Origin: Gammaproteobacteria bacterium
Lineage (GTDB): Bacteria > Pseudomonadota > Gammaproteobacteria > Enterobacterales > Permianibacteraceae
NCBI GenBank assembly: GCA_016182845.1
Contig: JACPFT010000010.1
Span: forward strand, 124,001-188,000
Direction: 5' to 3'
DNA length: 64,000 nucleotides
The notes beneath the pieces were generated by a model. That model did not search any database. It was not told the origin of the DNA and saw only the letters and a program-made list of their open reading frames with translations. The stretch's first letter is position 1, and every line of letters begins with the position of its first letter. This document shows, in pieces, positions 60,340 through 64,000 of the stretch. The translations under genes and the position numbers were made by a program.

Positions 60340-60363
60340 GATGCGTTCCTTGAGAAGAAGTTG

Positions 60364-60554
60364 ACCGCCAAGACGCGAAGAACGCCAAGTTTGGAGGAGA
60401 GAACGAATGCGACCATTACCTGGATGAGGGCCGCAGGCCGGAATCCGGGAAAACCACGGAACGGCGAATGGAAAACCCGGATTCCGCTACCGCTTCATCC
60501 GGGCTACGTTCTCTCTTCTTCTTTTTCCCTTGGCGTTCTTGGCGCCTTGGCGGT
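60364..60554. repeat. MITE-like element with a nested palindrome between gap and pgk
   Basis: ACCGCCAAGACGCGAAGAAC and, 26 bp in all, its inverted partner at 60529-60554 (24 of 26 identical) bound a 191-bp element related to 20778-20913. Inside, GGCCGGAATCCGGG and CCCGGATTCCGCT with GGGCTACG (60430-60508) form a second, independent palindrome. Confidence 0.75.
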
Positions 60555-60569
60555 TAATAAATCTTGGCC

Positions 60570-61633: not shown

Positions 61634-61731
61634 TCCCTCTCCCCTGGCGGGAGAGGGTTGGGGAGAGGGGGACGCGCGGCGGCATCCTCTTACCCCTCTC
61701 CCTAGCCCTCCCCCACGAGGGGGGAGGGGAC
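61634..61731. repeat. Two CCCTCTCCC-type palindromes between tkt and gap
   Basis: 61634-61670 (CCCTCTCCCCTGGCGGGAGA with GGG) and 61692-61731 (CCCCTCTCCCTAGCCCTCCC with GAGGGGGGAGGGG) lie back to back in the 154-bp gap, close to the tkt stop codon. Confidence 0.85.
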
Positions 61732-61737
61732 AGGAAC

Positions 61738-63735
61738 TTAACCCAGTAGTTCTTTCGCCTTGGCGGCCACCGCGTCCGCGGTGAAGCCGAACAGCTTGAA
61801 GAGCTGATCCGCCGGGGCCGATTCGCCGAAGCTCTTCATGCCGATCACGGCGCCGTCCAGGCCCACGTACTTGTACCAGCCGTCGCCCTGGGCGGCTTCG
61901 ATGGCGATGCGCTGGGTCACGGCGCGGGGCAGCACGGACTCGCGGTAGGCGGCATCCTGGGCCTCGAAAACTTCCACGCAGGGCATGGACACGACGCGCA
62001 CCCGGCGGCCTTCGCCGGCGAGGAGCTTGGCGGCGTCCATGGCCAGGGCCACTTCCGAACCCGTGGCGATGAGGATCAGCTCGGGCTGGCCCTTAGCATC
62101 GCTCAGGACATAGCCGCCCTTATTGACCTGGGCCAAGGTTTCGGCCTCGCGGTGTTGATGCGGCAGGGCCTGGCGCGAGAAGCACAGGGCGCTGGGGCCG
62201 TCGGCGCGCTGGATGGCGCAGGCCCAGGCCACTGCGGACTCCACGGCATCGCAGGGGCGCCAGACATTCAGATTGGGCGTGGCGCGCAGGGAGGGGATCT
62301 GCTCCACCGGCTGGTGGGTGGGGCCGTCCTCGCCCAGGCCGATGGAATCGTGGGTGTAGACATAGATGACGCGCTGCTTCATCAGGGCCGACATGCGCAC
62401 GGCGTTGCAGGCGTATTCCATGAACATCAGGAAGGTGCCGCCGTAGGGCACGAAGCCGCCGTGCAGAGCCAGGCCGTTCATGATCGCCGACATGCCGAAC
62501 TCGCGCACGCCGTAGTAGACGTAGTTGCCGCCCGGGTTCTCGGGGGTCAGGCCGTTGCAGCCCTTCCACAGGGTCAGGTTGGAGCCGGCCAGATCGGCCG
62601 AGCCGCCCAGGAGTTCCGGCAGCAGGGGGCCATAGGCATTGAGGGCATTCTCCGAGGCCTTGCGCGTGGCCAGCTTCTCGGCTTTCTCATGCACGGCGGC
62701 GATATAGGCCTCGGCCTTCTCGGCGAAGTCCGCCGGCAGCTCGCCCGTCATGCGGCGCACGAACTCGGCGGCCAGCTCGGGGAAGGCGGCCTGGTAGGCG
62801 GCGAAACGCTGGTGCCACTCGCCCTGCCACTCGGCGCCCTTGGCCTTCTTGTCCCAGGCGGCATAGACGCTGTCCGGCACGTGGAAGGGGGCGTGGGGCC
62901 AACCCAGTTTCTCGCGGGCGGCGGCGATCTCGGCATCGCCCAGAGGCGCGCCGTGGCAGTCGTGGCCGCCCTGCTTGTTGGGGGCGCCGAAGCCGATGAT
63001 GGTCTTGCAGCAGATCAGGGTCGGGCGTTCGGTTTCCGCGCGGGCGGTGTCGATGGCCATCTTGATCTCGTGGGGGTCATGGCCGTCCACATTGGGGATG
63101 ACCTGCCAGCCATAGGCCTCGAAGCGCTTGGGCGTGTCGTCGGTGAACCAGCCTTCCACATGGCCGTCGATGGAGATGCCGTTGTCGTCGTAGAAGGCGA
63201 TGAGCTTGCCCAGGCCCAAGGTGCCCGCCAGGGAGCAGACCTCGTGGGAGATGCCTTCCATCAGGCAGCCGTCGCCCAGGAAGACATAGGTGTGATGGTC
63301 GACGATGGCATGGCCGGGGCGGTTGAACTGGGCGGCTAGGGTCTGTTCGGCGATGGCCATGCCCACGGCATTGGCGATGCCCTGGCCCAGGGGGCCGGTG
63401 GTGGTCTCCACGCCCGGGGTGTAGCCGTATTCCGGGTGGCCGGGGGTACGCGAATGCAGCTGGCGGAACTGCTTGAGATCCTCGATGCCCAGATCGAAGC
63501 CGGTCAGGTGCAGCAGGGAATAAACCAGCATGGAGCCGTGACCGTTGGACATGACGAAACGGTCGCGATTGGCCCAGGTCGGATCATTGGGGTTGACGCG
63601 GATATAGTCGTTCCACAAGACTTCGGCGATGTCGGCCATGCCCATGGGCGCGCCCGGATGTCCGGAATTGGCTTTCTGGACCGCGTCCATGGACAGGGCG
63701 CGGATGGCATTGGCAAGCTCGAAACGGCTCGGCAT
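61738..63735 (-). CDS. tkt: Transketolase
   Basis: Transketolase moves two-carbon units between sugar phosphates in the pentose phosphate pathway and, where present, the Calvin cycle, using thiamine diphosphate. The 665-residue protein has [37 protein letters not shown], the thiamine motif [13 protein letters not shown]...FYDDNGIS, and the transketolase signature [23 protein letters not shown] chose ATG at 63735 with GAGGA upstream; the frame is open to 63843 through a palindromic region. It is the first gene of the tkt-gap-pgk-fba series. Confidence 0.98.
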
Positions 63736-63765
63736 GGCGTTCCTCGATGGGCAGGCTGGAATAAA

Positions 63766-63941
63766 CCTAGAAAAAGCAGTCGGCCCCAACTGCGGTCGCC
63801 TAGAGCTTGAATCTGTACAGGATTTTTGAAAAATTCGCCTCACCGTAGAGCTGGCTACTGCTTTCGTCGAATTTTTCCAAAATCCTGCGCATCTTCGGCG
63901 CCCTAGACGCCCTCGCTACGGGGTCGGCTGCTTCTTCTAGG
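63766..63941. repeat. 176-bp imperfect palindrome upstream of tkt
   Basis: Outer arms: 63766-63787 begins CCTAGAAAAAGCAGTCGGCC and 63920-63941 is its inverted partner (19 of 22 match). Inner arms: CAGGATTTTTGAAAAATTCG (63818-63837) and CGAATTTTTCCAAAATCCTG (63868-63887), 19 of 20 match. The whole element could fold into one long hairpin ending 30 bp before the tkt start codon. It may be a MITE-like repeat or a structured leader. No gene is seen in the remaining bases to the window edge. Confidence 0.75.
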
Positions 63942-64000
63942 ATGAAGGGCGCATATTTTCGCCTAATTGCCGCTCTGCGGCAAACGCCATTGCTCAGTCT

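Follow-up and report, generated by a model that had tools for sequence, protein, structure and literature searches.

What is the long palindrome that lies directly upstream of the transketolase gene tkt? The window, our term for the whole 64,000-nucleotide stretch of DNA analysed here, closes with a minus-strand run of genes, tkt-gap-pgk (gap and pgk were identified from their translations), and the palindrome occupies the space between tkt, whose ATG is at 63735, and a divergent frame that lies mostly outside the window. An earlier note, made from the sequence alone, had described an imperfect palindrome of 176 bp with two nested pairs of arms, ending 30 bp before the transketolase start, and had proposed that it was either a MITE or a structured leader RNA. 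The description proved accurate. Its coordinates, 63766–63941, coincide with the termini set by comparison with relatives (CC at 63766, GG at 63941), the spacing to the tkt ATG is as described, and both pairs of arms are present in what folds as one hairpin. An inverted-repeat scan placed the inner arms at 63809–63837 and 63868–63896 (29 nt, 83% complementary, 30 nt apart). Folded as a single hairpin, a 212-nt stretch reached –91.3 kcal/mol, compared with –58.9 ± 4.2 kcal/mol in 200 dinucleotide shuffles (z –7.8; 0/200 as good). This shuffle test, together with the copies in other genomes described below, rules out a chance palindrome. The element is non-coding; the frames that overlap it, which either cross it or extend beyond it, are there by chance. 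At gathering thresholds Rfam gave 0 matches in the window; weak matches to eukaryotic miRNAs and to Phe_leader fell below the gathering scores and were taken as noise. Other inverted repeats lie within the same gene run: one of a different type between tkt and gap (61635–61728; 36-nt arms, 83% complementary, CCCTCTCCCC...), and one between gap and pgk (60361–60557; 29-nt arms, 90% complementary, CGCCAAGACGC-type, 139 nt apart).

Table 1. Features of the palindromic element and the adjoining tkt region (coordinates are positions in the window).
Feature	Coordinates	Strand	Remarks
Element, probable MITE copy, 176 bp	63766–63941	–	Strand on which the family fold is better kept (tkt mRNA strand); from fold and comparison with relatives
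tkt, transketolase	61738–63735	–	Probable leader contains the element
Left terminal inverted repeat	63766–63783	+	CCTAGAAAAAGCAGTCGG
Right terminal inverted repeat	63924–63941	–	CCTAGAAGAAGCAGCCGA on the minus strand
Decayed 5-bp target duplication, left copy	63761–63765	none	ATAAA on +
Decayed 5-bp target duplication, right copy	63942–63946	none	ATGAA on +; 4/5 match
Conserved internal loop, side one	63787–63794	–	CAACTGCG on +; family CTACTGCG
Conserved internal loop, side two	63912–63920	–	CTCGCTACG on +; CGTAGCGAG on –
Conserved 2x2 step	63812–63813	–	TC on +, GA on –; partner 63892–63893
Apical stem-loop	63845–63858	–	GTAG...CTAC; covarying in the family
Putative tkt –10 box	63955–63960	–	GAAAAT; position conserved in relatives; not called by consensus promoter scan
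Possible –35 box	63978–63983	–	TTGCCG, upstream of GAAAAT by 17 bases; by-eye reading, weak

The many scattered copies that the earlier note had thought a search of the same genome would reveal in a mobile repeat did not appear. The 3.8-Mb genome holds one full copy, and the four other places that matched at E ≤ 1 span only 17–39 bp (E 0.18–0.34). Among 99 sampled relatives, a long match was found in the own genome only, and seven others had matches of 18–23 bp. Other copies were found in other genera. A blastn search of plasmid records returned a relative on a Legionella adelaidensis plasmid record (93% covered, 70% identical, E 1e-8), located between a peptidoglycan-recognition gene and hspQ, and this copy, used as a query, matched 10 of 369 genomes of the class at E ≤ 0.001, some by short matches only. 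We built a covariance model (R1) from eight copies (alignment A2). R1 had matches at E ≤ 0.01 in 41 of the 369 class genomes, and in 23 genomes, the own included, the best match reached E ≤ 1e-15; 17 genomes had five to seven among the matches listed and nine had seven each, where about seven candidates were scored per genome and one palindrome could be listed on both strands. A second covariance model in the opposite orientation (R2) matched 2 of 394 sampled genomes of the order (the own genome, and G1084 weakly) and 14 of 398 sampled genomes of the phylum, mostly weakly; such large-scale model searches ran under stricter filters, at which weak matches are lost. The window copy is thus a stray within its order as sampled. 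The earlier note had held that absence from close relatives, with no other copies, would mark a chance or recent local event. The rule would have misled, because the relatives of the element lie mostly in other orders.

Several dispersed copies per host, as expected of a MITE, were found in other hosts and not in the window's genome, with its one copy, so that it is the family, and not the lone window copy, that we file as a MITE with evidence of spread. A crude ORF caller placed 66 of 73 copies between genes, and the window copy belongs to the other seven, since a chance open frame lies over it. The genes beside the copies show no clear orientation preference. Neither phage records nor E. coli records contained a match to the element, and a phage origin was rejected: the exact 18-mer of the ends occurs in three viral contigs, each time inside a coding frame and without an R1 match. 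There are also copies of 62–96 bp that have both ends and little interior (L144:1468–1538 in Legionella adelaidensis, L233, L234, L235 and L236).

To describe the ends, we reduced 184 two-strand matches to 94 best-strand rows, leaving out duplicates and L179 and L203, which are cut at contig ends. An end filter (CCT/AGG) and the exclusion of all rows of G369, G382, G434, G347 and G424 left 71 rows; among the 23 dropped rows are genuine members, for example L163 and L220. The resulting 71 distinct copies, from 24 genomes, start with CCTA and finish with TAGG, and their shared ends are not an independent result because the copies were partly chosen by CCT/AGG ends. They are flanked by 5-bp sequences of the form WTNAW, which are identical in 46/71 copies and at least 4/5 alike in 69/71, whereas shuffling the partners gave a mean of 6.9 exact repeats and a maximum of 18 in 2000 shuffles. 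Identical flanking repeats of 4, 6, 7 or 8 bp were found in 0/71 copies. A 3-bp TNA duplication had been our first reading, which became 5-bp WTNAW once the next base proved complementary. In 15 host genomes the end pattern CCTARA-N5-CAGTTG had 413 matches, compared with 11 for the reversed control. Two observations on the window copy count against assigning it to an IS1380-type MITE: its duplication, ATAAA/ATGAA, agrees at 4/5 positions, and the own genome has 0 exact matches to the end pattern.

Because the CC ends and the 5-bp duplication suggested IS1380, we tested insertion sequences of this type as the mobiliser. PF13701 transposases were found in nine of 15 genomes tested; the own genome and five of the 14 other MITE-bearing genomes gave no PF13701 match, which counts against this assignment. 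The search returned 27 PF13701 loci, of which 18 were scanned for ends and two had ends on both sides. These two, L263 (in G286) and L267 (in G256), carry CCTARA-N5-CAGTT(G/A) at both ends, 1.69–1.70 kb apart, enclosing frames of 520 and 524 aa whose proteins are 47% identical, and they provide, in other genomes, the autonomous element with the same ends that is sought for a MITE. The best NCBIfam match of both transposases is NF033539 IS1380 (E 3e-35 and 5e-38). Both transposases exceed the PF13701 cut-off. Their NF033539 scores, 121.6 and 130.9 bits, lie below the NCBI IS1380 cut-off of 180, which weighs against the assignment, as do the decayed flanking repeats read from the sequence (2/5 for L263 and 4/5 for L267). 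The insertion sequence of G256 and a MITE in that genome are identical over all 19 terminal bases (21 including two flank bases). Beyond the ends, the interiors of L263 and L267 hardly resemble that of the MITE, which is thus not a simple deletion of either. For 20 single ends in G373 and G361, we looked for a second end at a distance and through the ORF list and found no adjoining insertion sequence; in five of these 20 cases the stretch extends no further than about 250 bp from the end.

Two members of the IS1380 family offer a comparison. An excerpt of PMC7864471 gives ISEcp1 the ends CCTAGATTCTACGT/ACGTGGAATTTAGG and a 5-bp repeat, and IS1247 is placed in the IS1380 family, with 1672 bp and a 5-bp repeat, in an excerpt of PMC3281130. 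The window family resembles them in ends that start with CCTA, in its 5-bp target duplication, in a matching insertion sequence of about 1.7 kb and in transposases whose best match is NF033539 and that exceed the PF13701 cut-off. It differs from them in that the element is geneless, its ends have a CAGTTG-like inner half in place of ACGT, and the matching transposases score below the NCBI IS1380 cut-off. We conclude, with a probability of roughly 0.9, that the palindrome is an old and apparently immobile copy of an IS1380-type MITE whose family has been moved by IS1380-type transposases. In proposing a MITE the earlier note was right in kind (inverted ends, 5-bp duplication, dispersed copies elsewhere and a matching insertion sequence). 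Given its 4/5 duplication and a genome without a PF13701 transposase, the window copy is an orphan.

How does this copy bear on tkt? Upstream of the gene, a GAMAATA block is common to the own sequence and five of the six relatives shown, followed by GCGCC in some. The block is intact in the window, with 13 bases between GAAAAT and the element, and the alignment with the upstream region of relatives extends past the insertion point (CGCCC-TTCAT-TCC in the own sequence, CGCCC-TTGAT-TTT in G001). A consensus promoter scan called no promoter at tkt. If GAAAAT is read as a –10 box, the tkt transcript would carry the hairpin; the element closely follows a conserved promoter-like site and probably makes up the larger part of the tkt leader. 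The Shine-Dalgarno region lies outside the hairpin and is predicted to be somewhat less paired than in a joined leader without the element. At the tkt-side end of the element there is a terminator-like stem with a T-run, which could compete with the main hairpin.

Two other accounts of the element must be set against the IS1380-type MITE. It could be a structured leader RNA that evolved in place and regulates tkt, an account favored by the fact that the element lies within what is probably the tkt leader, its mRNA strand being the one that folds better in the family, and by the terminator-like stem with its T-run. As a conserved regulator of tkt it is rejected: among the tkt loci of 29 relatives the sole match is at chance level (45 bp, E 0.5), and 80 tkt loci of other bacteria gave no match up to E 1. 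The copies found elsewhere adjoin unrelated genes and are flanked by 5-bp duplications, and the own copy lacks most of the strand bias described below, so a leader RNA evolved in place is highly improbable. What stands of the earlier note's leader alternative is the physical place of the element, probably within the tkt leader; conserved control of tkt does not. Alternatively, the element could be a MITE that depends on a different class of transposase (IS5-type, for instance, with a short TNA duplication) whose IS1380-like ends are shared by chance. Such an origin would fit the five of 14 hosts, besides the own, that have MITEs and no detected PF13701 gene, and it would fit transposases in L263 and L267 that score under the IS1380 cut-off. 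Against it stand two independent insertion sequences with CCTARA-N5-CAGTT(G/A) at both ends, a duplication of 5 bp and not 3, and the agreement with the ISEcp1 ends as given in the excerpt of PMC7864471, and we consider it very unlikely.

Nor does the family coincide with the other palindromic repeats that we compared. REP elements and REPINs are intergenic palindromes present in many copies, and the REP/RAYT system produces no target duplication; the window family differs from them in its 5-bp duplication and DDE-type partner, and the target duplication rules REP/RAYT out. In Coxiella burnetii, an excerpt of PMC5896051 describes QMITE2 as a hairpin-forming element of about 190 bp with terminal inverted repeats, found in intergenic or 3' regions, with variable repeats of 7–11 bp, and QMITE1 as having repeats of 2–4 bp. 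QMITE2 is like the window family in its similar size, its hairpin and its terminal inverted repeats. The repeats of 7–11 bp and 2–4 bp set QMITE2 and QMITE1 apart from the 5-bp WTNAW found here, a distinction made by published description and not by sequence, and QMITE2 was ruled out because, among lengths of 4–8 bp, only 5-bp repeats occur. Among the open-access PMC papers listed, judged by titles and the starts of abstracts, none dealt with this MITE family; the excerpts of PMC10969869 make no mention of IS1380.

On the IS1380-type reading, the history of the locus would run as follows. After horizontal arrival of the element, an IS1380-type transposase would have inserted it at a TTCAT/TTTAT-like site shortly after the tkt transcription start. 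The copy, now an orphan, would account for the bulk of the tkt 5' leader, and the main hairpin would not include the Shine-Dalgarno region.

What is unusual about the family is that the folded shape as a whole, and not the ends alone, seems to be preserved. We examined the pairing of the interior in alignment A3, which has 46 copies from 45 chosen loci and, being fitted to the R1 structure, leans towards it. In A3, 88.7% of cells pair and 49/67 pairs have changes on both sides. Double-change cells number 525, compared with 174 in shuffles (0/500 shuffles as high), and sliding the partners by one column lowered pairing to 45–46%. MAFFT alignments gave 36/67 such pairs in eight copies and 50/67 in 24 copies with more varied ends, most of which had been found by R1. 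In the apical region the GTAG/CTAC stem covaries, and TCAC/GTGA is mostly invariant and 80% paired; an apical pseudoknot joining the two was rejected since the connecting loops look too short, and we treat the stems as alternatives.

The mispairs are unequal between strands. On the R1 strand, A-C mispairs outnumber G-T mispairs 210 to 72, and with one copy per genome 87 to 32 (30 pairs versus 9, one-sided p 0.0005), so the opposite strand, which in the window is the tkt mRNA strand, keeps more pairs, as G-U. Folding agrees. In the 60 of 71 copies with a length of 175–192, the reverse strand folds better in 58/60 with RNA parameters (mean difference 19.8 kcal/mol) and in 60/60 with DNA parameters (mean 8.9); RNA and single-stranded DNA are not separable by these data. 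The strand itself can be set independently of folding, the loop motifs occurring in order on the R1 strand in 57/60 copies and on the other strand in 0/60. Among rows outside this strand test 30/34 have the same sign, and some of them are hairpins with other interiors, which counts against a preference peculiar to the family. Constant on the favored strand are the internal loop CGTAGCGAG/CGCAGTAG, the GA/GA step and the apical GTAG/CTAC hairpin with its covarying stem. The window copy runs against the family trend, with nine G-T and zero A-C mispairs on the R1 strand: counted one copy per genome, A-C exceeds G-T in 19/21, with one tie and the window copy alone reversed. The folding energies of its two strands are just 5 kcal/mol apart. 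Most of the strand bias is gone from this copy, and its reversed mispairs and small strand difference fit an orphan drifting without its transposase.

A whole stem preserved by paired changes, a strand preference and a conserved loop would together imply that the folded form has a function, and the folded single strand (RNA, or single-stranded DNA in transposition or replication) itself seems, from these sequence comparisons, to be under selection. The main rival of a selected single-stranded module is palindrome repair or a duplex-bound site: paired changes, and this caveat counts against selection, could arise without it when palindromes are corrected by template switching, and the constant loop could be a site in duplex DNA bound by the transposase or a host protein. 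We give this rival a substantial chance, a little short of even. The 62–96 bp deleted copies keep only the ends, which argues that not every copy needs the interior to move, and the window copy lacks a bias of the family's kind. Symmetric repair, however, does not predict the inequality of A-C and G-T mispairs, and the loop remains unpaired and constant where the adjoining stems change.

The same loop also occurs in hairpins with quite different ends. R1 and R2 matched loop-bearing hairpins of this kind in G382, G369 and G434 (CCCGCATTTCTCAC-like ends), G347, G424, G607 and G610; the one in G610, which is outside the class (L286:1501–1682), has the CGTAGCGAG/CGCAGTAG loop and completely different ends, and the G424 hairpin matches sX9 (RF02228) above the gathering score. 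An excerpt of PMC9029176 tabulates sX9 among the 20 most prevalent sRNAs of bacteria; that excerpt and one of a second paper name sX9 and give no description of it. The sX9 matches in G211, G424 and G327 lie in hairpins of about 160 bp that contain the CGTAGCGAG/CGCAGTAG loop, as in the window family, and are recovered by R2. In G211 and G424, with several per genome, the sX9 match is one side of such a hairpin (L304, L305, L308, L310, L311, L312 and L313). R2 recovered 8/8 sX9 loci supplied; in this test L306 lay below the sX9 cut-off, and L307 (G002, weak, without such a loop) and L309 were not included. Unlike the window family, the sX9-containing hairpins have other stems and ACATAGCG-like inverted ends (ACATAGCG...CGCTATGT), and the window element has no sX9 match: the own genome gave 0 sX9 matches, and L131, the locus that holds the window element, gave none. 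The sX9 model matches the strand opposite to the favored one, which counts against a common favored strand. Even so, sX9 annotations may mark repeated, perhaps mobile, hairpins.

Further hairpin families were seen alongside these. Hairpins of 165–172 bp and of 241–258 bp occur that have similar ends and other interiors. A second family, of about 170 bp, has the same IS1380-type ends and another interior (..TCACCTTGTTGGTGA..) and occurs in several genera (L285, L288, L289, L292, L294, L171 and L176). A third, of 242–245 bp, is made up of branched, GC-rich hairpins that have CCTARAAACGGCAGTTG- or CCTAAAAACCTCAGTTG-type ends (L224 and L225 in G373, L297 in G697). In G382, a nearly perfect 122-bp palindrome (L230:1618–1739, TTATCCGAAGATTGCTCCGG...) adjoins a GC-rich member of the loop family.

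Tentatively, and with more doubt than confidence, we suggest that these hairpins may form a Proteobacterial superfamily of mobile elements whose constant unit is a folded single-stranded module (CGUAGCGAG/CGCAGUAG loop, GA/GA step and apical hairpin) and not the end recognised by a transposase. Lineages would then differ in their terminal repeats, sX9 would be one side of such a hairpin, and some host or mobile factor in control of spread, silencing or replication would recognise the module as RNA or single-stranded DNA. The window copy would be a member lodged in the tkt leader, its strand preference on the way to being lost.

Where the window is concerned, this amounts to a modest result: an orphan insertion with a possible effect on the transketolase leader. 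The comparison also suggests that sX9 is, in at least three genomes, part of a repeated hairpin, so that some sites annotated as sX9 may not be sRNA genes in their own right. MITEs are commonly regarded as remnants that are known by their ends, whereas here paired changes preserve the entire stem in many genera, one strand is favored and hairpins with unrelated ends have the loop in common, which together point to selection on a folded nucleic acid carried within a mobile element.
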